This document shows, piece after piece, positions 12,920 through 64,000 of a stretch of DNA of 64,000 bases. The DNA is from Heterotrichella gracilis. Its lineage: Eukaryota > Sar > Xanthophyceae > Tribonematales > Xanthonemataceae. The stretch lies in assembly GCA_032358255.1 (NCBI GenBank), contig JAULBX010011656.1:1-64000 (forward strand). The letters are read 5' to 3'. The translations under genes were made by a program, and so were the position numbers. Below the pieces are notes generated by a model that saw nothing but the letters and a program-made list of their open reading frames with translations, searched no databases and was not told where the DNA came from. Position 1 is the stretch's first letter. Every line of letters begins with the position of its first letter.

Positions 12920-15900
12920 ATGCATGCATCCACAGTCACCACCACTGGTCGCGGGTCGCATGGCCTGGTGCAACCAACCTCTGCAGCGCGCTCGGCACCC
13001 AACCCAACCCCTCCATCCACACGATATCGGTCGACATCGAGGCACGCCAAGCCACGCAGGGGTCTATTACAGGTGAGAACACAGTGAGAGCTTCGCTCTT
13101 GGTCTAGGTGGCTCTTGATGGAGCACATGCTGCTCTCCGGAACCAGTGGCCAAAACTGCACGCGCGTGTCGCCAGCATGAAGCGTACCCTTCGTGCATTT
13201 TCCGACGTTTCTTTCAAACCCTGTTTTCATCGCAGAAACCCACCAACAGCCAAAATATTCGTGGAGCGATGCCAGATGTATAGCTGTGGCATCACCATGA
13301 CTATACTTTCTGCACTCATCCACCCCACCCAAACACCGCCTCACCAACGAGTGACTCCTATAATATTGGTGCCATCACCCTGGCCAACCGCACCTGTACT
13401 ACCACCCCACCAATAACTCTCTCCTTTGCCACATAGGTCCTGGCTGTCAGTCAGACCACAGTTGGCCCTACCGACCCATCGCCACCCTCGCCACCCTTGC
13501 CTAAGGGCGTGTCTCCACGCGATGTCAACCACAAGATCACCAGGGCAGACAACGCACTGGCAGTGCTGGAGGTGTATGCGGAGTACTGCGAAACCTTCAA
13601 CGCTGTCAACTGCGTGACGGCGTTCCACAGGGTAGCAAAGGTGGGTGTGGGTGGATGGTGAAGTTGTATGCATATGCCATTGCTGGGGTGTGTGAGATGG
13701 TGGGACTCAGCCTAGGGTCTTTAGTAACCCCAGCCCTAGCGCTGGGGTTTGAGCTGGTGGCGGAACCCAGCTAGGGTTGTGAGCGTTCCACAGGGTAGCC
13801 AGGTTTGGGGTGGGTGGATGGGGAAAACTCCAGCACCCTTGGGGTGGTGAGGTGGCGGAACCCTGCTTAGGGTTTGTAAAGAAAGTCCTAGCTGGGGGTT
13901 CGGCGAGGCAGTGCACCGTGGTACCTCGCCTGGGACCATAGCCATCTTTAACCCTTGCGAATGGAAATTGCGGTGTGGACAACCAAGAATCCCTGAATGC
14001 AGATAGGTGAAGGGTGTATTTCTCTAAACGCCTCCTCCCCTCCCCTCTCCTCTGCAGCACGGCTCCCGCCTGTCCCCCTCCGACCAGGACCAGCTGCGCG
14101 ACCACCCGCTGGTGCGCCACCTGGCACAGGCAGTGGAGTCATGTGCGCCCCAGTGGAACGCGCAGAGCACCAGCAACGTGGCGTGGGCGCAGGCGGTGAT
14201 GGGCCACGGCACAGAGCAGACGATGGAGCGGGTGAGGCTGAGGGTTAGGGTTCAGGGACCAGGGTTTAGGGTGATGGGCCACGCCTCATACCAGACGGTG
14301 AGGATGGGGTTAGCGTGAATATTAGGGCTTAGGGTGAGAGTGGGTTTAGCGTGAAGGGTAGAGTTTTCTTAGTGAGGATGGAGGGGGTGGGGATGGGGTC
14401 CGTCCTGGAATGGCTGCCATGTCTGGCACTGCGCATGGGGCCATGTGTGGTATCATGGTGGAGATACCTGGCAATGATCCATGTGCATACCGTGACCACT
14501 TTTCCCCATGTTCACTTTTCCGGGTACTGGTCACGGCTGCCAGGCGGAGTCATATGTGCTGGAACTCCTGCAGGGACCCTCTGCAACAATCAATCAAAGC
14601 TAGGCTACAGTAGACGTCTTCATGTACTTACTATGTCTCTGGCTGTGCCTGCCAGGTGGCGTGGCGTGTGATTGACCTTTGTTGCGAGGTCACCCCCCAT
14701 GATGGAAAGTGTAAATTGTACTCAATGCAAATTATGATAGTATACGATACTCAATGAAGCATGTGGTGTGGCTGCCAGGTGGCGTCGCGTGTGGTTGAGC
14801 TGCAGCGCGAGGCCGCCCCCTATGAGCTGGCCATCATGCTGTGGGCGCTGGTCAAGAGCGGGGCGCAGGCGGAGCAGCTGCTGGCTGACTGCAGCGAGGT
14901 GATTGTAGAGAGGTGAGGAGGGCAGGGAGGGGCTGGTTTCAATCAAGGGAATCAGACTAGGGGCTGTTTAGTCCTTTGGAGTGCTTTTGTAATGCTATTC
15001 TAGTCCCCCGAGGTTAGGTCAGGAGATGGGGGATTGCATGTGATGGGGCGCATCACGGCGGAGCAGCTGCTGGTGGTCGCAGAGAGGTGAGGGGATTTGG
15101 AGGGGCAGGTGATGGTCATGGGGAGGGGAGGGGAAGGGGGAAACAGCACGTCTTGGTGGAGCTACGCGGTGTAATAATATACTAGTAGGAGCTCTCCGGT
15201 TTCGTGCATGTACATAACCCAGATGGCACCGATACCAATTGAGAATATTTGTGTAAACCTAAGGCATCAACGCCAACTGAGAATGGCCTCCTCATAGCAT
15301 GGCAGCAGGAGGACCATGCACGTGTGCGCCCTCCCCGGAATGCCATGTACCACCACCACCCTGCTTGAAATTGCCATGACCGCCACAGGTCAGCTGGATT
15401 CGACACTCGCAGCAGTGCCAAATACCTCCCATGCCTCCATTAAATTCCCGCCTCACCACCCCTCACCTCTGCCCACAGTCTGACACTTCCCACCCCGCAT
15501 TATTATAAAGTAGAATATACAATAGTATTTTCATTCTTTATTCAAATCCCACCCCACCGCCGCAGGGCTTCTGAGTTTGATGCGCGCAGCATCGCCCAGA
15601 TATGCTGGGCCTACGCGGCTGCCGGTGCATACCACCCGGCCCTCTTTGAGGCTCTGGCAGTGGCGGCCCGCCAGCGCTTGGACTCGTTCAGCTGCCAGGG
15701 CTTGGCCAACCTGGCGTGGAGCTTTGCAAAGGTGGGGGAAGTGCAGCTGGCCTGCACCCGCACCCGCACCTGCACCATATGGAAACGCATGCAATGGGTT
15801 CCGTCATTCGTGGGAATCCGTGGAAATCCACCTTCCATTAAGCATGAGGGCCTTTTGAGCATCGGAAATGCGTTTTATAATAGCTGTCAAACATGCCATA

Positions 15901-18900
15901 TGTATACTTTTGCAGACCCTAGGTCTGGGACTATGACGAGGCGCTGATGGATGGCCTGGCCAGCGCCGCAGCTAGGTTTTGCTGTTACATGACCCCGCAG
16001 GACCCGTCCAAGCTGACGGGGCAGAAACCCATCGTGGTTCACACCAAATATATTATTACAAGACATAATAATGAGCACAGCCGCCTGAACTTTCTTTCGT
16101 TTGGTTGCGATCCCCAGGTCGGTCACTGGGACGAGGCGCTCATGGATGACCTGGCCAGTGCAGCAGCTGGGGTTTGCGGTGACATGAACCCGCAGGACCT
16201 GTCCAACGTGGCCTGGGCATATGCGCGGCTGCTGAGCCAACAGATGTCGGAAGAGGTGGCAGGTGGGTGTGGGGGGGGAGAGGGGTGGGGATGGTGGTAT
16301 TGCTGGCTGCATGGGCGGAGCATTGGTGGCAGCGTCGAGAGGGAGATGGCATCATGAAATGGGTAAGGATCGATACCAGGGGGGATGTAGAAAGCTTACT
16401 GTACCTTGATGAACTCACTGTACTATAGAGCATGCAACCATGCGTGTATGTGCTGGTGGAGGTGGCGTGCCTCAACACCATGCACCTCCACATCCTTGCC
16501 CCGCACCCTCGACCCCCCACCCCCCATGCACATCACCCCCCACTCCCACCATCACCCCCTGATCCCCACCCCCACCCCCCGCAGCCCGGGACCACAACTC
16601 CGAGGTGCCCACCTACTTCTCCCGGGTCATGTCGCACGAACCCAGGCGCGCACTGTTCCAAGCAATCATGGCGCGGGCAAGCGAGCTGCTGCCGCGCTTT
16701 GGCCCCCAATCACTGTCCACGATCGCGTGGTCACTGGCGGTGCTGCACCTCCAAAATGGGGCGTTCCTGGATTTGGTGGCTGCGCGGGCAGTGCGGGTGG
16801 CGGGCCAGTTCACTGAGCAGGTGGGTTGTGGTGGTGGGTGGGTGTAGTGGGGGATGGCGGGGCGTGGGAATCGTTTGGGGCAGGTGGGTGTGGTGGTGGG
16901 TGGTGTCAAGATTTGGAGCAGGTTGATCGCGGTGGTGGCCATGGTGATGGTGGGTGGTGTGGTGGGTGGGTGTGGTGGGTGTTTCTGACCTGGTGACTGA
17001 CTGTATGTGCCATGCGGTTGGCGGGGCAATTCTTTCAGCAGGTGGCCCCGACCTGACACCCTACCCACCTTTTTCACACACCACACCCCTCCCTTGCGCA
17101 GTCCATGGCCAATCTGCTGTGGGCCTTTGCCACGCTGCACCACCAGCAGCCCGAGATGTTTGACCACTTTGCACACGTGTGGGAGCCAAGGGTGGCGCAG
17201 GCGATCGAGGAGGGGGGGGAGGAGGAGGAGGGGGAAGGTGCGGGGCAGGGGCAGGGGGTACTCGGCGCAAATGACGTATGCAATTGCGGAACAGTGTGCA
17301 TGTCTTATGCCAATGCTATGCTGTGTACACTGTGCTGTGCTGTACGCACAATGCTATGCTATGCCTTGGGCTCAATGCTACCGCGTACGCGTTACATTGT
17401 GCGCTGTACATTATTGCTGTCCACAATAAACAGCGTGAACGCTGCGTGGTGTGAATGCTTTATAATCTCATTGCAAACCATGTCATGGCCCTGCCTACCA
17501 TGTCACCCCCACCTACCCTCTCTAAACCTTAACCCATTTCCCCCGCCATTTCCCCGCCATTTCCCACCCCATTTCCCACCCCATTTCCCACCCCATTTCC
17601 CCAGCCTCCATGAGCCTGCGCTACCTTGCCATGACGGGGATGGCGTACGCCTCCCTTGGCCACTGCACCAGCACCAGCGGCAAGCGCCTCATGTCAAGGC
17701 TGGCGGAGCTGGCGGGGAGGAGGCTGGAGGGGTGTGAGCCACAGGTGGGGTGGGAGGTTGTTGGGGGGGGAGGGAGGGCGGAGGCCACAGGTGGGGTGGG
17801 TGGGGGTGGGTGGATGGGTGGAGGAGGACGGAGGGGTGTAAGCCACAGGTGTGGGTGGGGATGGTAGAGATGGATGGAGGGGTGTTGAGCCGATGGTGAA
17901 CATGGAGGTGGTCATGGTGGAGGCGCAGTGTGCGTATGGAGTGTGGGGGGCTGTTGAGATGTTAAATCTGGTGACGCTGTTTCACAGGATGCAAGGGGTT
18001 TCTGCCAATATCTTGGCTGACATTTTTGTGTCAAACCCTTAAATGGGGTTTTGTGGTGTACCTTTGGCCACTGCTATACCCATGCGGACTCAACTCGTTG
18101 CAGTCTCAACAGCCCATCTTCCACCAAACACATGCACATGCACCGGCCAACAACAGCAGCCATTCCCACCTCACCCATCACCCTTCGCCCCTCTCTCCCA
18201 GGCACTGAGCAACCTTGCTTGGGCGCTTGCCGTGGCCAACTGTCTGCCTCCCACTCTCTTTGCGGCCATCAGGCGCCAGGCAGCGCGGGTGGCGGACCAG
18301 TTCACACCTACGGAGCTTAAACAGCTGTACCAGGTAGGGCGCTGAATGGGAAGATTACCCTGTTTAGGGTTTTTAAGCAGCTGATTAGGGTAATATATGG
18401 ATCCCTGAAAGATGGAGGCTTGAAGCGCTGAGGCAGGTGCTGCTGGAATGCAGAATTCCATGAATATGACAATTTTGTAAGCTGTTTCAGAACAGTGCTC
18501 TCTTCCATGGCCCCTTGCCTCCACACACCCACACACGCTTCTCCCCACACATGTGCCGCCACCGCCACTCCACACAAGGGCACACTTAGTACCCTCCCAC
18601 CCCCTCCCACCCCACTCCATGACCCCACCTCCCACGCAGGTCGAGCTGGCGCTACAGCTGGAGGAGGGCCCCCGCGTGGGCATCGCTGTGTCTGACATCA
18701 CCTCCTATGATGCCTTCCTTACCACGCTGTTTGATGCGGGGAGGGTGCGAAACCTGGCCACCGCATCCTGGGAGGAAGGGGTGCGCACGGGGCCAAAGAT
18801 CGTCACGCACCTGCAGAGGTGAGGGGATAGGGTGTAGGGTTAGAATAGGGTTTAGGGGGCAAAACCTGGTCAATGGGATCTGGAGGGTGCACGGGGCTCT

Positions 18901-23219: not shown

Positions 23220-26146
23220 ATGGCTGGTTCATGGGACCCCACCGTTGCCGTCCAAGCCGGCTCGCTGCTGCTGTTTGCGCTCGTGTCCCTGTTGAAATGC
23301 ATACTCTACCTCCCGTACGCCGCGGTCAGGTGTGTGCTGCCCAAGGCTCAATCTGTGGATGAGGATCAGTGCACTTTCTACGAGGCACAAGTGGACCACG
23401 TCAGGAAGCGGCCAGCTCACCATGCTTTCAAGTAGGCAAACATACATGCAACACAGACAATGCGACACCCACCACCCACCCGTCACCACACGCCCACACC
23501 ACACCATCATACCACCACAATCCCACCGCCCCACACCTCACCACACCACCACAACACACCCAATCCACCACACCACCACCACCTATTTCAACCAATCCAC
23601 AGCACCAGTGGGTGCACCCTGGTAGCTCAATGGCATAGCCTGTTTGTGATCTAGTACCATACACTGCAGGTACCACGTGCGGATGGCCTTGGTTAACCTG
23701 GACAACCCCCCTGTGTGGTGGAGCAGCAGCACGAGTGACACCTTGACTGGGCACCAGGCCAGGGAGCTTGCGGGCACACAAGGTGACAGGCTTGGACTGG
23801 TGGGGTAGCCCAGAGTGGTTGGCACCACCATCGCCACCACCCTCCCATGACACACCTTCCACTGTTGGCTGGTGCTGTAATATTGCTGGTGCTATTAATA
23901 TTGCTGAGCACCCCATCACCCATCCACACCCTCTACACCCAGTTAGGGTGTTCCCGACCACTTTTGCGAGGCTACGGTAGCACTGAAACTAGCACTTGCT
24001 TCGTGTCTCTGACTGCCTGTGCCCTTCCCAGGCGCTGTGCGACTGCTGGCCCCCCCCCCCCAGCATGGGCTATGTGCCAAAACCTACACCACCCTTGGGA
24101 ACCCTGTCACCACCCAGTATTACTAGCATCTCCTTCAGTGTTGCTTACTGCCTGTGCCCTTGCCAGGCGCTGACCACGCCCCCAAGCGTGGGGTGTATGC
24201 AAAACCCTACACCACCTCCCACACCCTATCACCCCCCAGAAATGCTAGCACTTGCCTCGGTGTTTCTGACTGATGTATGTGTCCTTCCCAAGCGCTGTAC
24301 GTCTGCTGACCACGCCCCCACGCGTGGGTTATGTGCACCCTACACCACACCCCACACCCTTAGAAACCCTATTACATCGTGCGCCCACCCTCCAGGCTAG
24401 CACGAGCTTGACTGACTGACTGCTTCCTTCCCAGGGGCTGTGAGCTGCTGCCCACGCCCCCCCGCGTGGGCTACCGTATATGCCAAACCCTACACCACCT
24501 CCCACACCCTTGGGAACCCTACCACCACCCAATACCCCAAACACGTGACTGACTACTGTTTTCTTCAACAGGCGCTGTGAGGCTGCTGACCACCCCCCCC
24601 AGCATGGGCTATGTGCAGAACCCCATCAGCGTGTACTACTGCTACAACCCCCTTGGCCAGCTGAGCCGCTGCATTGCCGAGGTGACCAACACGCCCTGGG
24701 GGGAGCGGGTGAGCTTCCTGTTTGACCCAGAGGGCCAGTCAGTGCCCAAGGCGCTGCACGTGTCACCCTTCATGGACATGAAGGGCACATGGTGGGTCAG
24801 CCTTTCTCCTGCAAAAACCCTAAACCCTAAACCCTGTACCGACCCATCAACAGTTTCAACCGCTCAACTGAAGTGTCACCGTTCATGGACATGAGGGGCA
24901 CATGGTGGGTCAGGCAGTTAGTTGGGTTTCAAACCCTAAACCTTAAACTCGTCTAGATGTGCACGTTTTCTTGGACGTGAGAGGCACATGGTGGGCCAGG
25001 CTACGTGTGGTGCAGGCCTTGCAGTACCAGCCACTCAATTGGGTTGAAAATTAAAACCCTAAACCCTAACCTCGTCCCTTCCTGTTTTACCCAGAGGGAT
25101 AGTGCATGCCCAAGGCGCTGCACGAGTCACCCTTCATGGACATGAAGGGCACATGGTGGGTCAGCCCCCAGTGTGGGGTATGGCTTGCATGTCTTGCAGT
25201 ACCAGGCAAGGGGTTCAAAATCAAAACCCTAAACCCTAAATTCATCTATGCACACCTTTGTGGACATGGGAGGCATATGGGTATCAGTCTCAATGTGGTG
25301 CACGACCTGCGCGCAGTGCAGTACCAGCCACTCAACTGGTTCAAAATCAAAACCCTATTTAGGTTAAACCCTCAACGTATCTATGCCCACATGCCTTTGC
25401 ATGCATTTCAGCGGCACAGCCAGGTCAACAACAGTGTGCGTTAAGCAGCGCCAATAGGCCAGTGCCAAGGCATACAAGCATGAACCTGAAACTGAAAAGC
25501 AATTCTTGTGAGTGTAAGCGTTTGAGCCGCTCATATGAACTGATTTGTGCAGGCTATTGAAAACCAAGCTGGAGCATGACAAGCTGTTTCTGTCAGTGAG
25601 CGTGACCCACCCCGAGCTGGGCAGTTACTTCAACGCCACCCTACAAGGGACAAAGTCCTCCAGCCCACACCAAAGCGACTTTGCAAGCCTCTCTACACTG
25701 GCTAGGTAAAAAATATACAGAATCTTAATAGCCATTTCTATCTGCTATTGTGATTTAAAATAGTTGCAGTGACACGGCCAGATGAATAGCCAGCCCCATA
25801 TGCCTTGCGCCAGCCTGGCCCTGTCCTGGCACTGCTAAATTAAGATGCGCACCTATTAACCTTCTCAAGAACATGAACACCATGCTGGAAATCACTGAAT
25901 GGAGCTTGCTTCCTGCACAGGTACGGCTTCCAGCCCTTCCGGATCGCCTTCTGGATCTACTGGCAAGCTGTGCTGCTGTTGTGCAAGGGCGTACACCTGC
26001 TGGCCATCCCATCAAACAGTGTGAAGAGGGCGGCGGTGGACAAAGCAAGCCACCCAAAGACCAAGCAGGGCTCGTTTTTCGTGTGGCGGCCAGCACAGGC
26101 GTACCCATGGACGAGCGAGCGCTGGATAATTGGCCCTGAGCCCTGA
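23220..26146 (+). CDS. DUF1365 family protein
   Basis: Five exons: 23220-23431, 23670-23782, 24572-24791, 25553-25705 and 25921-26146, in frame, 307 residues. Order: an N-terminal hydrophobic segment (SLLLFALVSLLKCILYLPYA), then CTFYEAQVDHVRKRPAHHAF, YHVRMALVNLD, PPSMGYVQNPISVYYCY, SFLFDPEGQSVPKALHVSPF, MDMKGTW, LSVSVTHPELGSYFNATLQG and RYGFQPFRIAFWIYWQAVLL. These match the DUF1365 (PF07103) core, whose biochemical role is unknown; in bacteria its genes often lie near cyclopropane fatty-acid synthases and flavin amine oxidases. The N-terminal and C-terminal hydrophobic stretches suggest membrane association. Exon 3 is flanked on both sides by arrays of its own decayed ends. The gene converges with CMC1. 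Confidence 0.9.
23990..24540 (+). repeat. Acceptor-side echo array of DUF1365 exon 3 (four units)
   Basis: Four tandem units of about 100-150 bp, each with the end of intron 2, an acceptor in the context CTTCCCAGGCGCTG or similar, and 30-60 bases of exon 3 (GGCGCTGTGAGGCTGCTGAC and AGCATGGGCTATGTGC in the original at 24571-24617). Unit exon starts are near 24030, 24166, 24290 and 24434. Each copy leaves the exon sequence at AAACCCTACACCACC, a degenerate telomeric-like junction. Confidence 0.88.
24820..25400 (+). repeat. Donor-side echo array of DUF1365 exon 3 with CCCTAAA repeats (about four units)
   Basis: Copies of the exon 3 end and donor (original CATGGACATGAAGGGCACAT then GGTGGGTCAG at 24771-24800) at about 24877-24915, 24953-24995, 25083-25165 and 25236-25285. 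The third is about 80 bases long and nearly identical. Each unit contains CCCTAAACCCTAAA upstream of the exon fragment (for example 24818-24835, 25052-25066, 25225-25240), again on the exon-interior side. Confidence 0.88.
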
Positions 26147-26150
26147 AGCT

Positions 26151-31018: not shown

Positions 31019-34000
31019 TCATGCCTCACCCTTCCCATTTGCCCTGTGCCGACTGAACTCCACCCCATGCGCCGAATCCGCCCCGGTAGGACTCTTCGCG
31101 CCAGGCCAGTCCACCCGCCGCTTGGAGTAGGGGGGGATGACCCCTCCCCACTCCAGCCCCTCCTTCACCAGGGGGAGTAACACCAACAGGCAGAAAACCA
31201 CAGAATAGCCCGCGATAGCTGCATTTGAAGCGGGGTACACCTGCACTAGGCCGATATAGATGGTAGCCACCGCCAGAATGAGCGATGACCTGCCGATCCA
31301 TTGGTGGGCAAACTCCCAGTAGCGGCGCGCCTTGTCGCCGCGCTTGGGGCGGTAGACGAGGGCGCTGAATTGAGTGAAGCCTGCAAGACAAGGGGGGGAT
31401 TTCAGCGTGTGGAGTGTAGGGCATTGTGGTGAGCAGATGAAGTGGGTGGTTGCCTGTGCGGCGGCAATCAGGGTATGCATAGGGGTAACCTATCTGCTGC
31501 AGGGGGTAAGGTATAGGTGTAGGGTGCACGGTGCAGGATGTGGGGAGCGAATGAAGTGGACATAGCCTGCAGAATCGGGGTTTTGTGTGAAAATTAGATT
31601 TTTGATGAGCAGGCCATTTTAAACAGCCTCCTCCCCTCACTCCTATCCTCTCTCCTCACCTAGCGCCATGGTCGATATGCCCATGTTGCGGTGCGTGGTG
31701 TAGACGCAGTTGCTCCCAATTGCAACCCATGCCAGGGAAAACCCTGCGATGGCCAGCGCAAACCCTCCCACCTGCATGACCCTGTGCAGATTGAACCACA
31801 GCGGCTCCCATGCCTTCAGCTCGCGAGCGCTGAGCGCACCCAGGGGGAGTAATACGCCCCAGGAAATGACCATAATCCATGCGTGGGCCTGGGCAAGAAG
31901 GGGAGGGCGGGAGCAGTGAACGAGGGGACGAGATTCATGAAACAAGCAAGACTTTGATCCAAGAAAGTGATCATCATCCCATAATGTGCTCCATGCATGG
32001 GCATGGTCAAGGGGGAAAGCGGGGTCGGTGGGAACAAGGGAAGGTGCTGAAGGGGAGGAATTTGAACCCCAGGGGAGGCCACCATGGTCCATGACCCATG
32101 CAGGCTAGAGTAGGGGGCAGGGACAAGGGCATTAGTACAATGAACAAGGGGAGGTGATCATGCAACAAATGGCAAGCTCGGTCACATGGGCGCCACCACC
32201 CCAACCCCCACCTCCTATGCACACGATCCAGGGTACCCAACTCCCCGACTCCCCCGAAATACCCAGCCCCCACCCACCCACCAGTAACGTATTACTCCTC
32301 TTTGCCGTCTGGACGCCCCCCGTGGCCTGCCCTGTGGACTCCAAATCGATGGTGCTGCCTGCTGAGTTGGCAAGAGGATGGGGTAGCAGGCCGCCAGCTG
32401 GCGTGATGGGGCCAGCGGAGCAGATGAAGTTGGCCTGCGCGCAAGCGAATTGGAAGGCATATTTGCAGGGATTTGGAGGATTTGTTGGGGTTTGGCAGTA
32501 CCATTGGAGTGCGTTTTAGCCTGTTGCATCACATTTGAAGAAGGGCTTACTGGCAAGCATTTAGTGGGTCGGATATGGCAGCATTATCAAGTACACCCCA
32601 AACCCTAAACCCTAAACACTGACCCCAAACCCTCCCACACAGCGCAGCACCGTCGGGTACGCCAGCAGGGTTAAGTATACCCTAAACCCAGCCCCTCCCA
32701 CGCACCGCGGCAGGGTTAGATATGACCGCGGGGTCCAGCACCACTGAGAAGACACCACTTTTGAGGGTCATAATCCAGAATCCTAAACCCTAAACCCTGA
32801 ACCCTCGCACGCACCGCGGCAGGGTCTGGTATGACCGCTGGGTCAAGCACCACTGAGAAGATGCCCTGCAGCCTGCCAGATGCTGTCTTGGCTGCCGTTG
32901 CGTTTATGACCGTAAGCTTTCCCCCTGGGGTCACCGCTTGCACCACGGGAGCGGCCAGGAAGTACTGCTCGATGGTGGCGCCGCTGGGCGCTGTGGGAAG
33001 GGGAGGGAGGGGGGTGGGTGAGGGGGTTGGGAGAGAGCAGGTGTGGTGGTGGTGGGTGTGGGTGTGGGTGTGGGGAGCTGGGTGGTGGTGTGGCGGTGGT
33101 GGTGGCCATAGGACGTAAGTGTGTGACTGCGTCACTGTTGACAACGGATTTCCTACTGTTTGCCCCCTGCTGTCTAGAAGCCTGTCCTCAATTTGGGCAC
33201 ATTTCCTCAAATCCGGTCGACATCGAATCCTGGTCCCCAACTCGATCCCCGCCGCGCACATCATACTTGCATGACGGAAAATGTCGACAAACTTCGAACA
33301 AACCTCACACTCAAAACAACTACAAGTCTACCCGGTTGGGGGCCATCCTCGTTGCGTTGGATTTCTTGAATAATTGAATTATCATTTCAAAATGATTCGG
33401 ATATTATATGAATAAATATAAACAATAATAAACAATAATTCATATGATTTTAATAGTATATTATTGTTATATCATTTTTGAACTAAATTATCTAAATTAT
33501 GAATCATATGAATTATGAATAATATATATGATTCAAAATAATTGGGATATAATACGATATTTTTGAAATGATCATCATCATCTCATCATAGCAATCTGCA
33601 CCATTTTATTCCGGGTATCTTAAATACCCTTACCTGAGCTGTCGCTCTTGATGATCATTGCGCTTGCCCCAGTCATCAGCCCAGGCGTCACCGGGAAGCC
33701 CATGCCCACATAGCCATCGTGCTCAGCATCCACAGCAATGGTCAGAACCTGCTGGGGGCCAGCGGCCTGCGCAAGGGGAAATGCACATGAGGTGAAACCC
33801 TAGGTCCTGAACCCTGAACCCACGAAACCCTAGACCTCGAAAAGTACACCCTAAACGTCCACGGCGATGGACAGCACCAGCTGGGAGCCAGAGGGCAGTG
33901 GGGGCAGGGGGCGCACAGGGTGAAACCCCTGGCGCACATGGGCAACCCCTGGGTAAACCCTAATAGGGTACAAGCACCGCACCGTTTGTGCCAGTCGCCT

Positions 34001-45593: not shown

Positions 45594-45623
45594 CCACAGC
45601 GAGTACACTGGAGCTGCAGTAGG

Positions 45624-50406: not shown

Positions 50407-52571
50407 ACGATCACGGGTGCGTCCAGGCTGTGCACGCAGTAGTCGCTCACGCTGCCCAGACCAACAGCCGACATCAGGGACCTGGACCAGGGGGGAAGAG
50501 GGCATGCAGCCTGGTGCGACGGGGGTGATAGGGCAGGGGATTTTTTTTAAACACAAAGTGTCATGCGGGGAGGGTGCGCAACCTGAGAAAGCTCAGGCGG
50601 GAAAGCGATGTAGCGCATATGCGAGGGGTTGATGAGGTGCATATCGCGCGCTGTGGTATGCCATGGCAGGACTCAAGGGCAGCCTAGAATCTGAATCAGG
50701 CTACATGCATGTAGGGCAAAGGTTTCAAGGCAGGGTTCAAGGTCGTCCCCCCCCCCCTCCTCACTTTTTTATGCTCCCCATCCCCCTGTGCCCCACCACC
50801 ACCAGGTCCATGCCCTGCTCCCCCACGTAGCCCCTGATGCTCTCGCCCACCCCACCTGTGGCGCTGTGGCTGGAGGCGGGCAGCGCCTTGGTGTGGATCA
50901 TATTGGGGGGGACCTGCGGGTGGTGGGGGTGGGTATTGGTGGTGGCGGTGGCGAATTGTGATGGTAATAACAATGGCAGTGGTGGAGGAGGCGGTGGTTG
51001 GATGTGTTCCAGCTGCAGGCAGAGGGGCATGTACCCTTGCACAATGTGCGTCACCCAGCTTGGTGCCTGTGGTTATGGTGCATGACAAATGCAAGCATGG
51101 CGGGCGGCCCATGCAAATTACACCCGCCTGCACATGCCACCCATGCACCTGTTACCCCCCCTGGTGCCCACAGCCACATCTCCCCCTTGTTCCACGCACC
51201 CTGGTCGCCATTCAGCCCAGCCCAGCCCAGCCTGGTTACCCCCCTGGTACCCACATCCCCCCCCTTGTCACACGCACCCGCTATCCTCCCCCACCCGCAC
51301 ACCACCACAGGCGCACGCACCCCTGCCGCCGTGGCGCTGTTGTACCCCTCCCTCATCTGTATGCGCTCCGCGTGCAGCTGGAAGTCCTAAACCCTAAACC
51401 CTAAACCTCACTACACTACACAGTCAGGTACAGGTACCCGTGGCGCCTGCGGGGCACAGCAGGCAGCCCATGCAACCACACACACACATACTTCCGCAGG
51501 CCAATCCCCTACCCCCCCGCCCAACACGCACCCCTGCCGCCGTGGCGCTGTTGTACCCCTCCCGCAGGATGCGCTCCGCATCCAGCAGGAAATCCTCGCT
51601 GTAGTACACAGTGACCAGGTAAAGGTGGTCGTGGCGCTTGCGGGCGTGGCGGGCAGCCCAAGACAGGGCCGCCTTAGCATTGGCGCTGCCATCGATCATG
51701 GTGCAGAGCTTGCGCCCGGGGCGCGCCCCCGGCGGGGATTCTGGGTCTGGGTTGGGGTTGACGTCCATCCCGAACCGCATCTGGATGTGGGCCTCCACCA
51801 AGCGCTCAGTTTGGACGAGCTGGTGGAGTTCGTTAATTTTCTGGGGAGAGGGTGGATAGGTGGGTGGGTGGGGGGGAAGGGGTGTCAAGGGGCAAGGATC
51901 TCCATTCCGGATAGGGTAAGGATGTATGGTCAGTGCCTAGGGTTTCTGGGTCGTGTTGGGATTGGCATCCATCCTCTGCAATTTTTATTAGATTAAGCGC
52001 ATGGTTGGGGCTAGGTGGTGGAGCTGGTGCGTTGTCTAGGAGTGGGGGGTGGGGAGTGGGGGTGACACTTGGTTTTGGCTGGTGTCAAAGGGGGAGGTGG
52101 GGGGCAAAGTACCTTTTCTATACATGCAAAAGCGGGCATGATATACGAGAGCGCACGGGAAAACTTCCAAGTGGGTGCCTGTGGGTGTATCATATGGTTC
52201 AAGGTTAAACAAGGTTAAAAAAGGTTAAAAAGGCATGCACAACTTACTGCCACCAGTACGGATGGGTGGTTATCCAGGAATGTGTGGTCCCTATGCCAGA
52301 AGTCACACGCAACTGAACTCTGTGGCGGCGTGCTAAAAAAACAGGCCTGCTTGCTGCCGCACACGGGTTTCACCTCTAGGTAGCCAAAGCTTGAACCATG
52401 CACCCATGTCTGGAACCTTCACAAGCCACACACCTCGAGAGTAGTTGGGTACTGCATGAGACTATCGTTCGCCTCGCTGAAGTGCCTTTTGAGGTGCTTG
52501 ATCACGTCCTCTAGCTTGGCAGCCACGGCTGCGTCGTCCTTCGCTGCCACGGTGCCGGAAGTCTCTGCCAT
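50379..52571 (-). CDS. Universal stress protein (UspA-type) domain protein
   Basis: Four exons: 52571-52434, 51840-51532, 50913-50765 and 50481-50379, giving 232 residues. An N-terminal helical extension (MAETSGTVAAKDDAAVAAKL, VIKHLKRHFSEANDS, KINELHQLVQTERLVEAHIQ) precedes the USP fold: KLCTMIDGSANAKAALSWAA, HLYLVTVYYSEDFLLDAERI, YVGEQGMDLVVVGHRGMGSI, GSVSDYCVHSLDAPVIVVKG. The nucleotide-binding signature G-x2-G near GHRGMGS is present, with a slightly longer spacing than usual to the following GS, so ATP binding is plausible. USPs act in stress signalling in bacteria and plants; the specific role is unknown. Intron 2 contains a recent partial copy of exon 2 interrupted by telomeric repeats, and the stop region is tandemly duplicated. 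Confidence 0.9.
51313..51473 (-). repeat. USP exon 2 donor-side echo, split by three CCCTAAA units
   Basis: 51313-51388 closely copies 51527-51597 (the donor side of exon 2, CCTGCCGCCGTGGCGCTGTT and on). At TCCT the copy leaves exon sequence and continues TAAACCCTAAACCCTAAACC (51387-51406). A second fragment at 51424-51473 (GTGGCGCCTGCGGGGC, CAGGCAGCCC) then copies 51613-51662. The middle of the exon copy, about 20-30 bases, is thus replaced by telomeric repeat. Confidence 0.92.
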
Positions 52572-56632: not shown

Positions 56633-59600
56633 CTACCCATATTTGTTCATCCTCAGCATCTGCAGCTCAGCATCAATCTCCTCCGCAGACCGCACAAGGG
56701 ACCCCTCCTTGGCCGCCGCGGCGCGCACCTTGCTGTCCAAAAACGTGCCCTCGGTGCTGCACACCATCCCAAAGTTGCCGTGCTTCACCAGCACCTTGTT
56801 GCCCACCCGCACAAAGGCGGTGGCGTCCGCGTAGGGCGAGGCCACCGCGGCGTCTGCTGCGCCGCCATGTGGCACATAGCTGGGCACCGCGGGGATGCGC
56901 GAGGTGATCTGGGATTGGTCGTCGAGGGGCAAAACCCCATCGGGGAGGGTCCTGGTCCCCAGGGGGGAGATCGCTTCGGTTTGGGATGCGGGGGTTGTCC
57001 AGTGGTCCCCATATAATATGTCAAATGCTGTTTCCCCCCTGGGGTGGTGCATCCCAGGGGGAGTGAAGACTGCATCGGGGCTGGGCCATGCTGCAGGGGG
57101 GATGTCACGAGCCCAGGGGAGGGTGCAGCTGGGTGACCTCCCCTCTTTAATTGTTGCGCACGCCCCCTTGTGCCTCCACCACGCCTTGGTCTGGCACTCC
57201 TTGCTGCAATAGGCAGCAACGCCGCAGCGCGAGCATTTGGACAGGGTGAGGGAGGACTCACTGGTGCCTGCGGGAGGGGAGGGAGGGGGGGGTTAGGGTG
57301 CGGCTAGGGTAATGGGCGCAGCATTTGGACAAGGGGAGGGATGACTCGCTGGGGCCCTGCAGATGGAGAGGAATGTATGGGGCATGGCATAATAAACGAC
57401 GCTTCCCTCCTTGTGGACGTTATGCACATATCACATCAAGAGGAGCAGTACCGCTATTGCATGACCCATATGCACCTTCAGCCTTATAACCTCACAGGCG
57501 CCACAGCCACAGCCACAGCCACAGCCACAGCCACAGCCACAGCCACAGCCACAGCTTGCATGCACCAACCAATCCCAGCCAACCCTTGTATTATCCCCCT
57601 CACCTGTGCAGTTTATGCAGTGTCCATAGGCGCAGCCCACCACCGGCCGCTGCATGATCAGCTCCTCAACCTCGGCTGAGGTGCAGCTGTGGTCAAACCT
57701 CTCGTCACGCAGGTTGCTGAGGAAGCCAAGCATGTTCCGGCCCTGGTGCAGGGGAGAGGTGGTGGGGGGTGTGGGGGGGTGGGGGATTGGGTAGGTGGGG
57801 TATGGCACCTCCTGTGCTGTTTAGGGTTTAGGGTATAGGGTTGGTGGGTTCTGGGATTGTGTGAGGTTGTTAGGGAAATGTGGTGCAGCTGTAGTTTCAT
57901 GCAGGTTGCTGAGGACCCCGAGCATGTTTTGGCCCTGATGCAGGGGGTAGAAGGGGGGTGGGGTGTGTTGAACAAGGGGTCTTGGGTCAACCCAGCCTAC
58001 ACGTTGTTCAAGAGCCAGAAATGGTGATAGGTAGCTGTGAAGGGTTGAGGGTTTGTGGTTATAAATCCTATACCCTAGACGCAATCAAACGAAATAGAGC
58101 AATAAATCTCGATAAAATTATAAACTTAAAATCACTATATTCAATTGACATAGATTAAGTTTCAGTCATTTTTATGAACCCATTTATTTCTGATCCCAAT
58201 CCCCACCTGCTCATCCTTGAGGTATGCCTCCACCTCGTCCTCCAGCAGCATGGCCCCCTTGGCCAGGCAGGTGTACACCGCCAACCCTACCCTAGGGTCC
58301 ATGGCCTGCACCTCATGGTGGCAGGCCCACACAGCAGACTTGAGCTCCTGGGCGCTCACCACCAGGCTGGAGGTGGCGTCGGCGCTCAGACCACACAGGG
58401 CGCCCTGCGGGACGATGGATGTGGTTCCAGAGTTCATAACATACACACCGGGTTTAGGGTTTAGGGCTTAGGGTTGCGACTGCAGCTCCTGGGCGCTCAC
58501 CACCAGGCTGGAGGTGGCGTCGGCGCTGAGCCCACACAGGGCGCCCTGCGAGGGGATGAAATTGGTTTCTTAATATGTAAGAGGGTAAATATACTAAGTG
58601 GCCTGTAGGGGCGGGGGCGAGGGGCGATCTCTTCTAAGACATGACGGGGAGTTGTTTCATGACCACTGCATGTCCACCCACACCGCCCTCCATGCTTGCA
58701 TGTCCCCCTGCGTAGTTGGTAATTATTACACTAATTTTTCTCCCCCACCCATTTACTCTTTTACTTATTCCTTTACTTATTATCTTCCCCTCACCCACCT
58801 CGTCCAGCCTGCTCCTCCTCAGCGCCCCAGCAAACAGGTCCCCAACTCCCAAAGCAACCAGCGCGCGATGCCACTGGGGGTCGGGGCACAGGCGGATCAG
58901 GGCCGTGGCAACCTGCAGGGGAGGGTTTAGGGTTTTAAGTAATACGAACCGTAAGAGTTGGGGTTTGGTGTGTGTGTGTGCCCACCGGGTTGGGACACAG
59001 GCGGATCAGGGCAATGGCCACCTATGGGGGAGGGTTAAGGATTTAAGTTTGAGGGTTAAGGGTTCACCAGGCATGCCTGGACGGCACAAGAGCAGGCAGC
59101 TACAGGCATTGGTTTGAGGGTTTAGGAGGACCCAGAAGCACTGTCTGCAAGGGCCATGGCGACGTACATGCAGACATTGACCCCCAAGGCAAGAAACGAT
59201 GTGATAGGGATTTCATTGTGCCATCCCTGCCACCCCCCCCACCCCACCTGCACCGCCAGCAACCCCCCCTCCACCCGCAGCGCCTGCTGCAGCTCCATCC
59301 TCTCAGTCAGCTGCTCAGGCTCGTCCCCCGGACCCATGGCGATGGGCTCGGGCTTAATTTCCAGCAGCACTGCCTTGAAGGCGGGGATGAGGTGGGCGGA
59401 CAGGGACAGGAGGGCCCTGTGGGGTAGGGGGTAGGGTTTAGGGTGAGGGTAGGGTTTTGGGTAGGGTTTAGGGTTGAAGTCCTGCAAGCACTGCCTTGAA
59501 GGCGGGGATGAGGTGGGTGGACAGGGACAGAAGGGCCCTGAAGAAAAGGGATTAGGATGTGGGTAGGGGTGTGGGTAGGGTTCAGGGTTTGATGGGGCCA

Positions 59601-62600
59601 GGGTTGTTGCAGGAGCCTTGGGGAGTAGGCCCAGGCTTCTGTTCGAGCAATACTGCCTTGAGGGAAGTAATGGTGTGGGCGGTCAGGGACAGGGATCCCC
59701 CCGCCCTGTGTGGGAGAATTTAGGGTAATGATTAGGGTTGACCCAGCTAACGTTATGCATGCACGCAGTGCACCGTGAAATCCTGAACAACATGCCCCAT
59801 AGTCCCACTTCCACCACTTCCACCACTTCCACGCACCGCTGCGCCTGCTCCCCTTGCCCCCTCCCCGCCCTCAGCCGCTCCAGCACCAGCTGGCGCCCCA
59901 CCCTCACCAGGTGCCACAGGGTATCGCACAGCGCCACGTGGCGCGTCACGCACTTTGCCCAGCTCACTATCAGGCCGTGCACCTCCAGGGTGTAGGGTAT
60001 TGTGGCGGGCAGAAACCCTAGATTGTCCCAGAGCGCGGCCAGGCAGGAGACCACGCTGCGGGCGCCCTTGGCGTTCATCCTGTGGGGGCAGAGAGGGTGG
60101 TTGTGGGGACTGCGAGGGATCCGAGGACGTGGGTGGGGTTTTGCAGGGCGCTGGGTGTGCGGTGAGGGTTTTACGGGGGATGTGGGGTGTGTATTTAGCG
60201 TAATGAGACGGGCAAAAACCCTAGGTTGTCCCAGAGCGCGGCCAGGCAGGAGACCACGCTGCGAGCGCCCTCCACGTTCATCCTGTGGGGGCAGGTGTGG
60301 AGTTAGGAGGGTTTTGTCACAAAACTTTTGTGGGGCGTATGGGAGGATTGTGAGGGATCAAAACCCTCACCAGTACATTGCCCTTATGACAGATTCCATC
60401 AGCCGCACCAGCCCTCCTCCCCTCACCCAAACCTTAATCCCCAAATGCATATACTTCAAAGACTAGGACACTATTCCAGTGGATCTTCAACAAACAATCC
60501 TCAAAATGCTGCAAAATCGCTCACCAATCCCAGCCCAGTTGACCACCAGAACCTTGCACCCCGTCAGCCCTGAAACCCTCAAAACCCTGCAGAACCCTCA
60601 CCAGTCCATGGCCCGTATGACCGCCTCAATCAGGCGCACCAGCCCCCCCTCCCGCAGCGCCACAACCGCCGCCTGGCCCGCAGTCAGCACCCCAGCCCCC
60701 GACCCCACCACCTCCAGATCCACAGCCCGGTCAAACAGGTCGGGGAGGAGCGCCAATCCCCGCAGCACGTTGAGGGAGGCCACTCGCCGAATGTGGGCCG
60801 CCTCGGGCTGCGGGTGGGGGGTGTGGGGGGTGAGCGGAGTGTGGGTGCAATTCAATGGTGATACCATCAATGAAGGATGACAACATCCCCTGGGTGGCCA
60901 TGGAATGTTGTCATCCACTCATGATGGTGTTTATTCACCCTGATGATATTATTTATGCTCCCTCACCTTCCCTGCAACCTCCCTTGCCTTCCTGTCCGTT
61001 CCTTCAGGGCCAGCGCAAATGCTTGGTAATTCTAGTTTATCCAACCTTCAATTGTTTTATGTACTTCCTCATTTGATTTTCACCTTCCCCCCTCACCTTC
61101 CCCGCCACCTCCCTTGCCTTCCTGTCCGCCCCCTCCACTGCCCTCAGGGCCAGGCGAGGCATCACAGCAGGCCAGCACCGGGACACCTGGTCGGGGTCCT
61201 TAGGGTTTTGGGGCGCGCGCCGAGCCCACGGCAAAACCCTACAGGTGGGTGCCGCTGTCAATAAAGAAACACATCCATATGTACAAGAAAGATATAGGTG
61301 CATTATTTCTTATAAGCAAAACATGTATTGGCATGAAACCGATGGGCGCTGTGCAGCCCATGAAGGAGGCACGCTTGGTGTTGTAGTAAACCCTAAATCC
61401 TAAACCCTACACAATCAGCAGTAGCACCAGCACCAGAACCACCACCGCCACCCCCCCACCTGGTTTTGTAGCTGTCCATGAGCAGGCACAGGATGGTGGT
61501 GAGGTGGTTGACAAGCTCGGGGGTGCGCGCGTGGACGGAGGGGGGGAGGGTGCCGGGCTCGGTGGCCACTGCATAGGCTGTGTTGGTCAGGGATTTCAGG
61601 GACTCGCGGCTGCTCCACCACTCCCTGCAGATGAATGTCGGGATTTGAATTTGAATTTGAATTGGATTTAGAATTTGGTTTTGAATTGAATTTGAATTGG
61701 GAATTGGAATTTGTTTTCCCCTGAACTTCCACTGGGGGTCCCAGATGGGTGATGTTGTCTGCTGATGCACGCCACCACCTCATGCTTGCAAACGCACAGG
61801 GCAAGCGCCCCTGTCCCGGCATCCATCCCCTCCACTGCGCCCCTGTATACATCGCCTACTCTTCCTCAAACACAACCCACTTACAGCTCCTGATTCCTCT
61901 TATTACCTCCCCTTCAACCCGCCATTTCTTACACACTTTGTGTGCGTTATTTGCAGCGGGTAGCTGCAGCCCTGCGCCACCACCTCCTGCGTACACCCCC
62001 ACAGTAGTAGGATTTCCTCCCCTTTCCTCAGGAGCAGTGTCCTACCCACCGCCTCCCCTCTTTCATTTCAATTAATTCTCAATTTTTGACATCTAATACC
62101 CCAATTTTTCACATCTATTCACCCCCTGTGGCCCCACCTTATGTGCGGCATCTGCAGCAGGTAGCTGCACCCATGCGCCACCACCTCCTGCGTGCACCCC
62201 CACAGCAACAGGGTTTCCTCCCCTGCTTCAGGCGCGGTGTAGTCCCCCCCCTTCACCCCGCGCTCCTCTGCCCGCTGCCGCAGCCTGGTCCATCCCCGCG
62301 CGTGCAGGTCGATGTGGTCGGACAGCTGGGACAGCCAGTGGAGGTGGGCGTCCTGCAGCGTTTGGAGGGGGTCGGAATGGATTATTTGGTGGTTCATTCG
62401 TTCTTGTTCCTTTTCCTTTTCTGTTTCCTGTTCCCTTTTCTATTTCCCTTTTCTATTTTTTTCTCTATTTTTCCCCCTATTTGCGTGCAGGTTGACAGCT
62501 GGGACAGCCAGTGGAGGTGGGCGTCCTGGGCATGCCTTGTTTGAGGGGAGATGGGGTTGGAATGGATTTCCCCCTCCCCCCCTCGTTTTGCTCGTATTGT

Positions 62601-64000
62601 TTTTGGTTTTGTCATTTTTCATTTTCATTTTTCGTTTACTTTTTCGTATTAGTTTTCCTTTTCCGTTTTTGGATGCAAGTTGACAGCTGAGAGGGCAATT
62701 GAGGTGGGCGTCCCGCTTCGCCAGGTTGAATCGGTTGATTTCCTTGGCGCCGCACGTGCATGGCTGTATTTCTATAATGCATGAGAGCAGTCCGGCAGTT
62801 CCAACCAGCACCCAGCATCCAACCCCCCCAGATTACCCTCGTCTCTCCCCCCCATCCCCCACACCCCACCTGTGTCTCCTTGGCCCCCAGCACCCGCAGC
62901 CACAGCTTGTTGGGCGGGAACCCAACGGGGACGGTGTAGGCGTTGCTGATGGCAGGGGGGGGGCGGGTGCCCTGCTTGTTCTGTAGCGGGGGAAGAAATT
63001 ATTATTTATTCAGATCATGCAGACAAGGTGCAGACAAGCTTTAGGGTTTACATTTTAGGGTTCCAGGTTTACCTGCAGGTAGGGCGCTGCTGCGCAGTTG
63101 AGGCGGCACATGCTGGTGGCCAGGGTGTGTTGGTGGTCAAAGACTGCAAGGTGGGAAATGAAAAGGGGACAGGGGGTCAGCAACAATGATGACTTGCTAA
63201 AAAGGGGAGGACACACAAGCACACACACACACACGCACACATGCAATTATGGAAGTCTGAGGGAATCCTAACCCCAAACCCTAATCCCTGTACTTGTGGT
63301 CTGCGCAATCGCGCCAGGTCAAGAATTGCTTTCACCCTAAACCCTACACCCAACACCCTACACCCCACACCCTAAACCCTACACCCCTACACCGTACTTA
63401 CTGTTACAACAGCGAGCCATGCTCAGAATCGCTTTCACCGTTTTCTCCCACAAGTGTCCGTTCGACTTATTGACGTCACAGTAGGCCTGCGAAGAAGTAA
63501 ATAAAGAAATAAATAGATTCAAAATATACTAATTGCTGTGCAAAGGTGTGCTGTATGTACACGCAGGAAGAGAGGATTTGATGCAAGCAAAGCAGAAATT
63601 CACCAACAATGGCTGGAATTGCCGGGCTGAGGGCGTCGAAGGTGGCATGCACAGATGGATAATCAAATTGACCATCACCACCACCACTGCCACCAGCGCC
63701 ACCACCACCACCACCACCACCACCACCACCACCACCAGCGCAGCTGGTCCCTACATACGACAGCTTATTATCCAGAGCCTGCTTAGGGTTTAGGGTTTAG
63801 GGTAGAGGACACCCCACCTCAGACAGCTTTGTGTCCATGTGGCTTCCCATGGCTGCGTGCACAATGGTGGCAAGGTTTAGTGCTCAGGGTTTAGGGTTTA
63901 GTGCGTAGGGTATAGGGTTTAGCGATTAGGACACCCCACCTCTGACAGCTTTGTGTCCATGTGGCATCCCATGGCTGCGTGCACCACGGTGACAAGGTTG
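56633..64000 (-). CDS. Helical (ARM/HEAT-like) repeat protein with C-terminal MYND zinc finger; N-terminus beyond window
   Basis: Fourteen exons seen, in frame: 64000-63940 (partial), 63486-63402, 63143-63073, 62980-62870, 62352-62138, 61624-61460, 61238-61097, 60807-60602, 60079-59837, 59416-59248, 58912-58799, 58404-58207, 57742-57604 and 57267-56633. Most encode amphipathic helix pairs (LNVLRGLALLPDLFDRAVDL, ALREGGLVRLIEAVIRAMDW, GARSVVSCLAALWDNLGFLP, RALLSLSAHLIPAFKAVLLE, VATALIRLCPDPQWHRALVA), consistent with an armadillo/HEAT-type solenoid. The zinc finger is complete across the last intron: CINCTG, CSRCGVAAYCSKECQ and HKGAC give the C-x2-C ... C-x2-C ... C-x3-C ... H-x3-C MYND pattern, a protein-protein interaction module. 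A 190-residue tail follows. Function unknown. Nearly every intron holds an exon echo. Confidence 0.85.
57300..57358 (-). repeat. MYND exon echo, acceptor side of last exon
   Basis: AGCATTTGGACAAGGGGAGG (57321 on) copies AGCATTTGGACAGGGTGAGG (57233 on), and GACTCGCTGGGGCCCTGCAG copies the region around the last-exon acceptor at 57258-57271. Confidence 0.85.
57499..57553. repeat. (CCACAG)n hexanucleotide microsatellite
   Basis: About nine perfect GCCACA/CCACAG units in an intron of the MYND gene. On the coding strand this is CTGTGG. Confidence 0.95.
57888..57950 (-). repeat. MYND echo of exon 57604-57742, acceptor side
   Basis: CATGCAGGTTGCTGAGGACC (57899 on), GAGCATGTTTTGGCCCTGAT and GCAGGGG copy 57707-57754 (CACGCAGGTTGCTGAGGAAG, AGCATGTTCCGGCCCTGGT, GCAGGGG). 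TTTAGGGTTTAGGG lies just before it at 57821-57834. Confidence 0.85.
58449..58556 (-). repeat. MYND echo of exon 58207-58404, nearly identical, with TTTAGGG units
   Basis: GGTTTAGGGTTTAGGGCTTAG (58451 on) runs into GCAGCTCCTGGGCGCTCACC and on to GGGCGCCCTGCG, matching 58341-58409 almost perfectly (two or three differences) through the acceptor. The copied exon fragment breaks after codons for SAQEL, exactly at the repeat. Confidence 0.93.
58970..59030 (-). repeat. MYND echo of exon 58799-58912, acceptor side
   Basis: GGGACACAGGCGGATCAGGG (58990 on) copies GGGGCACAGGCGGATCAGGG (58882 on), continuing through an altered acceptor (GCCACCTATGGGGG against GCAACCTGCAGGGG). Confidence 0.85.
59430..59708 (-). 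repeat. MYND echoes of exon 59248-59416 (two), with telomeric units
   Basis: First copy 59482-59540: GCACTGCCTTGAAGGCGGGG, ATGAGGTGGGTGGACAGGGA, AGGGCCCTG, preceded by TAGGGTTTAGGGTTGAAGTC. Second, more decayed copy about 59645-59708: ATACTGCCTTGAGGGAAGTA and GGTCAGGGACAGGGATCCCC. The original lies at 59367-59420. Confidence 0.88.
60205..60292 (-). repeat. MYND echo of exon 59837-60079, acceptor side
   Basis: AAACCCTAGGTTGTCCCAGA and then the segment coding MNVEGARSVVSCLAALWDNL (60219-60282), with its CTGTGGGGGCAG acceptor context, copies 60012-60092. The copy stays open over about 25 codons; only a few bases differ. Confidence 0.92.
60340..60445 (-). repeat. MYND echo of exon 60602-60807, donor side
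   Basis: AAACCCTCACCAGTACATTG (60360 on), ATGACAGATTCCATCAGCCG and CACCAGCCC copy 60592-60645 (GAACCCTCACCAGTCCATGG, ATGACCGCCTCAATCAGGCG, CACCAGCCC), i.e. donor plus last codons. Confidence 0.85.
60955..61025 (-). repeat. MYND echo of exon 61097-61238, donor side
   Basis: CTCACCTTCCCTGCAACCTC, CCTTGCCTTCCTGTCCG and CAGGGCCAG (60961-61014) copy 61093-61153. Confidence 0.85.
61633..61712. repeat. GAATTTGAATT simple repeat
   Basis: Imperfect GAATTT repeats in a MYND intron immediately next to the exon ending at 61624 (coding strand AAATTC). Low complexity. Confidence 0.9.
61945..62062 (-). repeat. MYND echo of exon 62138-62352, donor side
   Basis: GCAGCGGGTAGCTGCAGCCC (61953 on), GCGCCACCACCTCCTGCGTA and CACCCCCACAGTAGTAGGAT copy 62155-62220, followed by a weaker match in TCCTCAGGAGCAGTGTCCTA. 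Confidence 0.88.
62485..62715 (-). repeat. MYND echoes of exon 62138-62352, acceptor side (two)
   Basis: GACAGCTGGGACAGCCAGTG then GAGGTGGGCGTCCTG (62490-62529) is an exact copy of 62323-62355; GACAGCTGAGAGGGCAATTG then AGGTGGGCGTCC (62681-62712) is a decayed one. Both are flanked by T-rich low-complexity sequence (TTTTCTATTTC and similar). Confidence 0.9.
63678..63737. repeat. (CCA)n trinucleotide microsatellite
   Basis: CCACCACCACCACCACC run with a few interruptions, about 60 bases, in the first visible MYND intron. Confidence 0.95.
63783..63930 (-). repeat. MYND first visible exon, donor-side echo bounded by TTTAGGG
   Basis: GGACACCCCACCTCAGACAG and the rest of 63807-63874 copy 63929-63996 with about six differences; both read HAAMG(S/C)HMDTKLSE and carry the GAG/GTGGGG donor. 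TTTAGGGTTTAGGG lies on both sides of the copy (63784-63802 and 63886-63901). The copy lacks an obvious acceptor, so the right-hand one at 63940 is taken as the real exon. Confidence 0.9.

Follow-up and report, generated by a model that had tools for sequence, protein, structure and literature searches.

Where intron sequence comes from and how it is renewed is a long-standing question, and the locus described here raises it in a particular form, namely what process places copies of exon ends, which we call echoes, in the neighbouring introns. Such copies accumulate there, often beside pieces of telomere repeat, a pattern suggestive of continuing intron growth by local duplications that have a link to telomeric tracts, with one local process leaving copies of graded age. 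We analysed a window of 64,000 nucleotides (positions 1-64000 of its contig, in an assembly of 68.5 Mb and 903 contigs), the next 20 kb of the same contig and 24 readable stretches of 10 kb each from other contigs, which make up a sample of 324 kb; a 25th stretch consisted of N and was left out. Gene-model work was carried out on 304 kb, leaving out two stretches of low G+C content (L032 and L034, positions 20001-30000 of C127 and C151), whose G+C is 0.38 and 0.37, the other stretches lying mostly at 0.50-0.59. These two stretches carry several long uninterrupted open reading frames, up to 1499 aa, and may belong to contigs of bacterial or organelle origin. Genes were predicted by an unsupervised HMM of simple design, trained on the sequence under study and using sequence only, which called 399 exons in the 304 kb with the donor consensus CAG|GTGGGT and the acceptor consensus CTGCAG|G, and with a median gap of 330 nt between exons on the same strand. 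A Pfam scan of single exons confirmed DUF1365 (PF07103, E = 9.1e-26), Cmc1, Cupin_8/JmjC and zf-MYND, and gave no family for the tested exons of the genes named earlier as OPR-RAP, USP and one of two b561 genes; one exon of the other b561 gene had a weak, sub-threshold SdpI match only.

Self-alignment of the 324 kb revealed 132 direct local duplications within 600 bp versus a single inverted one, and within the window the self-matches at most 3 kb apart comprise 55 direct and 2 inverted. A first-pass annotation of the window had described exon ends copied together with their splice site into the adjacent intron, and self-alignment bears this out in the window and in other sampled contigs, where the echo pattern recurs. 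That annotation had counted about 45 echoes by eye between 12920 and 64000; echoes are indeed present there, and at the threshold used the count is 26 pairs with a displacement of at most 260 bp, the two sets not being matched one by one. At least one copy is predicted to be coding in 24 of these 26 pairs, and the spacer holds a telomeric 7-mer in 17. The wide range of ages that had been described is also seen, with identities of coding/non-coding pairs spanning 70-100% (median 86, n = 71, whole sample). Three more pairs lie in the window upstream of 12920, two of them at 6.7-7.0 kb in a gene that we take, from a protein motif, to be CHLM-like. In this gene (6764..7024, minus strand), 6764-6846 is a donor echo of the exon end 6912-7024, and the spacer is without a telomeric run. 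This CHLM-like gene and the other gene names of the first-pass annotation suggest that the organism is probably a green alga.

The individual loci differ in how telomeric sequence is placed. In the gene named OPR-RAP (15917..16206, plus strand), an acceptor echo at 15917-16011 repeats 16112-16206 at 83% and the spacer has no telomeric run. In the DUF1365 gene (24714..25166, plus strand), self-alignment and the HMM show the end of exon 24572-24791 and its donor echoed in the intron, with plus-strand echoes at 24873-24913, about 24968-25001 and 25126-25164, the copies being separated by CCCTAAA tracts at 24815-24835, 24931-24942 and 25054-25069. The pair 51314-51470 and 51525-51660 (51314..51660, minus strand) has a telomeric tract at 51386-51407 inside the first copy, and similarity resumes past this tract, which places it within the copy. 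As the HMM calls both copies coding and only 51525-51660 joins a longer exon, we take 51314-51470 as the putative echo and 51525-51660 as the exon copy. The next loci are all on the minus strand. An acceptor-type echo at 58478-58567, which carries an HMM coding call on the opposite strand, repeats the exon start 58337-58426 at 89%, with a tract at 58450-58466 between the two (58337..58567), and an acceptor echo at 59487-59540 repeats the exon start 59366-59419 at 96% across a spacer that is partly degenerate telomeric sequence (59366..59540). A donor echo at 60960-60998 repeats 61090-61128 at 95% (60960..61128), with an A+T-rich spacer (G+C 0.40) free of telomeric repeat, and another at 63806-63873 repeats the exon end 63928-63995 at 93%, with telomeric sequence after both donors (63806..63995).

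Next, we investigated where copies fall relative to exons. Among 110 pairs with a displacement of at most 260 bp, 71 join a coding and a non-coding copy (37.0 expected), 20 are non-coding only (56.5 expected) and 19 are coding/coding (16.5 expected); by reading, many of the coding/coding pairs are echoes that the HMM called exons, and several of the non-coding pairs are echo-echo pairs. Exon edges are spanned by 63 copies against 27.1 expected, a value reached in 0 of 500 random placements. This excess is in part expected, because one copy is constrained, and when only pairs of at least 92% identity are considered the coding/non-coding class numbers 14 against 8.1 expected and the non-coding class 8 against 12.3, so that the remaining exon-edge preference is moderate. 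The non-coding deficit is kept at lower cut-offs too (12 against 35.6 at 85%, 11 against 26.8 at 88%). Uniform duplication combined with faster decay of intron-intron copies was considered as the cause of the preference and rejected, as it weakens the preference and is not sufficient. A single predicted edge is spanned in 55 of the 71 coding/non-coding pairs (the other 16, spanning none or two, were not counted), and in these the side of the echo follows a strict rule, donor-spanning echoes lying downstream in 31 of 31 cases and acceptor-spanning echoes upstream in 24 of 24. Such a rule follows from tandem duplication in which the copy joined to the exon body stays in use.

The echoes also carry a signature of decay. 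Sorted by the codon position that they occupy in the exon copy, mismatches occur at rates of 0.117, 0.092 and 0.187 in the 71 coding/non-coding pairs, near the 1:1:2 expected with one free and one constrained copy. The coding/coding control, many members of which are themselves echoes, gives a similar pattern (0.104, 0.066 and 0.163), and for that reason does not discriminate. A detectable exon echo is found in 51 of the 307 predicted introns, and introns with an echo have a median length of 424 nt compared with 310.5 nt for those without, about 110 bp more (p = 1.4e-7). This association agrees with the recurrent, intron-lengthening process proposed in the first-pass annotation, as does the finding that the process leaves extra splice-site copies, the decoy sites it had anticipated. 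The same regularities speak to whether the echoes are assembly artefacts. Repeats are prone to assembly error, and the contig starts with a run of 74 C (window 1-74) that is probably a sequencing or assembly artefact in itself, but the divergence between coding and non-coding copies is 0-30%, many loci are involved, and both the direction rule and the codon-position pattern are consistent; we regard an artefactual origin of the echoes as scarcely credible.

We also examined how the copies are spaced. The duplications of the 324 kb fall into 94 clusters, 75 of which are single pairs and 19 of which contain more than one pair, sometimes regularly spaced, as in L016 (4163-4575) and L031 (9239-9619). 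Displacement is bimodal, near 105 and 200 bp, single pairs included, and only 5 of the 75 single pairs fall between 140 and 180. A hidden middle copy, tried as the source of the displacement near 200 bp, reaches z > 4 in 8 of 25 cases and accounts for only some of them. The copies flank a largely unique insert, as a target-site duplication would, and a mobile introner-like element with long target-site duplications could in principle produce this arrangement. However, the spacers of single pairs show no common or dispersed family, giving only three weak short matches against the rest of the sample; the apparent duplications of single pairs vary from 30 to 178 bp; and intron positions are common to the two paralogues described below. 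Furthermore, a 5.5-kb echo-rich stretch has 12 genome matches including itself, of which the strongest others are confined to one part (57144-57371), with no dispersed insert. We therefore disfavour such an element as highly improbable, in line with the earlier remark that introners do not fit. The genome search found no second haplotype of 57.0-62.5 kb.

Turning to the telomeric tracts, we observe that several contigs open with (TTTAGGG)7 runs oriented as in a telomere, on which ground TTTAGGG is very likely the telomere repeat of this organism. Perfect telomeric 14-mers occur 2845 + 2784 times genome-wide (5,629), against 2 + 3 for the reversed motif. In 254 kb, telomeric runs of at least 11 bp lie between copies in 37 of 88 cases, versus 6.25 by circular shift, and near inner ends 16 and 12 times, versus about 2, with 5 and 3 near outer ends, also versus about 2. 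We then applied a more stringent control, in which each telomeric run (ITR) was re-placed inside its own non-coding segment. ITRs between copies number 41 of 123 against 22.7 expected (0/1000) and those at inner ends 34 against 18.6 (0/1000), with 4 at outer ends against 11.9, and the result holds both in the window part and in the other 22 loci; the tie to telomeric repeats claimed in the first-pass annotation is thus upheld. The sequences to the left and right of a single telomeric run align with each other at a score of at least 46 in 30 of 93 cases. When the two flanks are taken from different runs this happens in 1 of 369 cases, and with the reverse complement in 1 of 93; random positions at the same loci give 35 of 372. 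None of 124 ITRs lies within predicted coding sequence.

Ordinary minisatellite dynamics, in which slippage or unequal exchange multiplies units at exon edges and telomere-like motifs play no causal part, would account for the 19 of 94 clusters with more than one pair, some of them regularly spaced, and for minisatellite-like arrays at 20833-21050 and 36006-36188 of the window, whose unit includes a telomeric motif (the unit of the former also has a CCCCAGG acceptor-like end). Against this reading stand the 75 clusters that are single pairs, the genome-wide excess of telomeric 14-mers over the reversed motif, and the tracts at inner junctions, which remain in excess even against placement within their own segment, making it an improbable explanation.

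The tracts are concentrated beside splice sites. Over 256 introns, the density of telomeric sequence is highest at 10-40 nt downstream of donors and at 20-60 nt upstream of acceptors. A telomeric 7-mer lies within 5-60 nt of 36 of 54 real splice sites that bear an echo, 19 of 54 echo sites and 94 of 509 other sites, and in 26 of 211 intron-interior stretches; relative to the interior, the tract excess at echo-less donors is modest (56/248, p = 0.005) and at echo-less acceptors there is none (38/261, p = 0.50). In genome-wide pattern counts, in which overlapping registers of a single tract are counted separately, the donor consensus is followed by a G-sense 13-mer 104 times at 0-30 nt versus 33 times at 50-80 nt, and by a C-sense 13-mer 33 times; within 30 nt of the acceptor consensus we count 199 C-sense against 86 G-sense 13-mers, the C-sense comparison count being 95. 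Spacer telomeric sequence is present in 39 of the 55 exon-edge pairs and absent in 16. Both orientations are found, as described before, with mostly one per event (acceptors, 14 C-sense and 4 G-sense; donors, 13 G-sense and 8 C-sense). With telomeric 7-mers masked, the shared intron end measures 23-86 nt in the four G-sense acceptor events and 2-21 nt in the C-sense ones, which would fit a C-rich insert replacing the polypyrimidine tract at acceptors; this is only a hint, since in unmasked sequence the C-sense range (7-56 nt) overlaps the G-sense range (26-39 nt). The acceptor orientation likewise hints at which inserts beside splice sites are tolerated.

Upon closer examination of the breakpoints, the proposal that telomeric units begin where the copied exon piece stops turned out to be no general rule. 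Counted up to 10 nt from the breakpoint inside the exon, heptamers show a weak excess (17/55 against 11.1 expected, reached in 14 of 500 randomisations); over an equal distance from the inner end on the intron side, by the real splice site, they occur in 25 of 55 pairs against 11.1 (0/500), and at the outer end of the echo in 11 of 55, at chance. The intron part of echoes, unmasked, has a median of 14 nt at donors and 23.5 nt at acceptors, and the intron part of about 8 nt seen in young echoes after masking is partly a masking effect. Telomeric 6-mers lie inside the aligned, shared intron part in 22 of 55 pairs. Junction nucleotides are in telomere register over at least 2 nt in 7 of 20 cases and over at least 4 nt in 4 of 20, and by reading the largest register matches are on the intron side, with a telomeric seed in both copies. 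Two further ideas were rejected. A telomerase-priming polarity (G-strand by the first copy, C-strand by the second) fails as both orientations occur at both ends, and the GGG of donors or acceptors is not the sole anchor, several echoes without a telomeric spacer also ending near splice sites.

The order of events can be approached in two paralogous genes that lie side by side, A (window 30500-37800) and B (38200-44000), with intron positions in common; their earlier name, DOMON-b561, found no support from Pfam on the one exon scanned in each. All echoes of this pair are on the minus strand. In A, a donor echo at 32693-32752 repeats the exon end 32802-32861 at 90% (32693..32861), with a tract at 32782-32798 between them; the echo matches its own exon at 54 of 60 positions and the exon matches B at 45 of 60. 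The tract is present in both genes, and no echo was detected in B at the counterpart of this donor. A second donor echo in A, 33964-34043 of the exon end 34172-34251 (33964..34251), has tracts at 34153-34176, and inspection by eye also shows a middle copy that has decayed; here too B has a tract at the same place and orientation and no detected echo, and the age difference is small (echo versus exon 65/80, exon versus B 61/80). At the third donor compared, 35554-35603 of A repeats 35639-35688 with a telomeric tract between (35554..35688), the echo dating from about the time of the gene duplication or before it (38/49 versus 41/49), and at its counterpart B has neither tract nor detected echo. 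B in turn carries an acceptor echo, 41266-41334 of 41177-41244 (41177..41334), with (CCCTAAA)n at 41238-41262 at the junction and a telomeric 7-nt seed in both copies; it is young (64/68 versus 58/68), and near 33848-33905 A has what looks like an older and decayed equivalent. By reading of 18 splice-site stretches from nine exon pairs, 4 have a tract of the same orientation in both genes and several have one in a single gene only. The tract without an echo in B, seen at two of three donors compared in this one paralogue pair, and the telomeric 6-mers inside the shared intron part suggest that tracts can precede echoes and belong to the duplicated part.

The general order proposed in the first-pass annotation, a break within the exon followed by telomerase addition at that point, is not supported by these data; tracts are concentrated on the splice-site side, sit inside the shared intron part in the 22 pairs mentioned, and occur without a detected echo in the paralogue at two donors. 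A related reading places both steps in one event, with a staggered double-strand break near the exon end filled in over 50-110 bp and telomerase adding repeats to one of its ends ahead of joining, so that telomeric inserts are consequences and repeated rounds put tracts at both places. Tracts at inner and not outer ends, the alignment of the two flanks of one ITR (30/93 versus 1/369 for different ITRs, although random same-locus positions reach 35/372), the junction nucleotides in telomere register and the absence of both tract and echo in B at the 35.6 kb donor are what it would produce, and there is precedent both for breaks that received telomeric insertions, now and then with a direct duplication (PMC7215372, PMC2246262), and for tandem duplications that arise when Pol alpha-primase, guided by CST, fills in 3' overhangs (PMC8355091). 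It nevertheless sits poorly with the tract that lacks a detected echo at two donors of the paralogue, with the weakness of the telomere excess at exon-interior breakpoints, with the intron-side position of the largest register matches, where the other copy was already seeded, and with the scarcity of purely intronic events, which should be common. We consider it somewhat unlikely.

We tentatively favour over such one-step telomerase repair a reading in which tracts of telomeric repeat next to splice sites give rise, time and again, to local tandem duplications that splicing then filters, without holding it to be established. It draws on the observed geometry, direction rule, decay pattern, association with longer introns and tract without an echo in the paralogue at two donors. 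Intronic tracts of this telomere repeat, short and close to splice sites, would act as break- or stall-prone hubs, and repair at a hub would re-copy the adjoining 50-110 bp as a local tandem duplication, perhaps by fill-in or template switching. This would double the exon end and the splice site, and in many cases some of the tract as well, and the junction would be filled with telomeric or other sequence. Products still spliced at the copy that is contiguous with the exon body would survive, and the other copy, now intronic, would decay and add about 105 bp (sometimes about 200 bp) to the intron, in rounds that repeat. The tracts may first have come from telomerase-type break repair, and a part for telomerase in their first seeding is plausible. 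Because 16 of the 55 exon-edge pairs are without spacer telomere, a tract is either not required or has been lost there.

Several observations weigh against tract-seeded duplication. Alignment through a telomeric repeat can be convergent. That the excess is greater at inner than at outer junctions is more readily expected of an insertion at the junction than of a duplicated unit with a tract at its end, unless live splice sites conserve their tracts. Since a tract also borders on intron sequence, hubs do not explain why non-coding pairs are so few, and at echo-less sites the tract excess is modest at donors and absent at acceptors. A further possibility is that a splice-site lesion, coupled to transcription or splicing, recruits telomere-synthesis machinery, so that introns are built outward in units of about 105 bp; we think this distinctly unlikely, and if true it would mean that telomeric repeat and a fresh exon-end copy are laid down stepwise from splice sites.

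Comparison with known systems indicates both likenesses and differences. Among telomeric insertions, the mammalian reports give a direct duplication in 3 of 66 cases in horse, ascribed to staggered breaks (PMC7215372), and at 6 of 130 rodent and 4 of 25 primate loci (PMC2246262), and describe human interstitial telomeric sequences as having none in exons and an intron share compatible with random insertion (PMC2246262, PMC7215372). The tracts described here resemble those of primates, rodents and horse in being short, internal and of the organism's own repeat, with some duplications and perhaps also with junction microhomology (PMC2246262, PMC7215372). Unlike those insertions, where by these accounts duplications are a small minority, 41 of our 123 ITRs lie between direct copies, and their location is not random, tracts being concentrated beside splice sites. 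Small tandem duplications by CST-Pol alpha-primase are likewise short local direct copies, and that complex also serves telomeres, whereas the accessible portion of that report describes neither telomeric inserts nor a link to splice junctions (PMC8355091). Introners, among them those of Amoebophrya, resemble the echoes in having intron material between direct repeats, but they are repeated families that make introns, in contrast to local exon copies in, where compared, pre-existing introns (PMC7789003). No new intron was created in the one gene pair compared, as positions are common to paralogues with and without an echo. An origin of introns by tandem duplication is reportedly due to Rogers in 1989 and Hellsten in 2011; the echoes share with it a tandem duplication around a splice signal and differ in that an existing intron is lengthened, often with telomeric repeat at the junction. 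Interstitial telomeric insertion and small tandem duplication are thus known separately, and a limited literature search, covering few subscription papers, found no precedent for their coupling at splice junctions. The echo process would connect the growth of introns with the biology of telomere repeats.

Young echoes may be taken for exons by gene finders, as happened with the HMM here. Finally, A+T-rich spacers (G+C 0.20-0.45) with no telomeric repeat are found in the pairs from window positions 14644, 20384, 60960 and 61934 and from position 9832 of L009.
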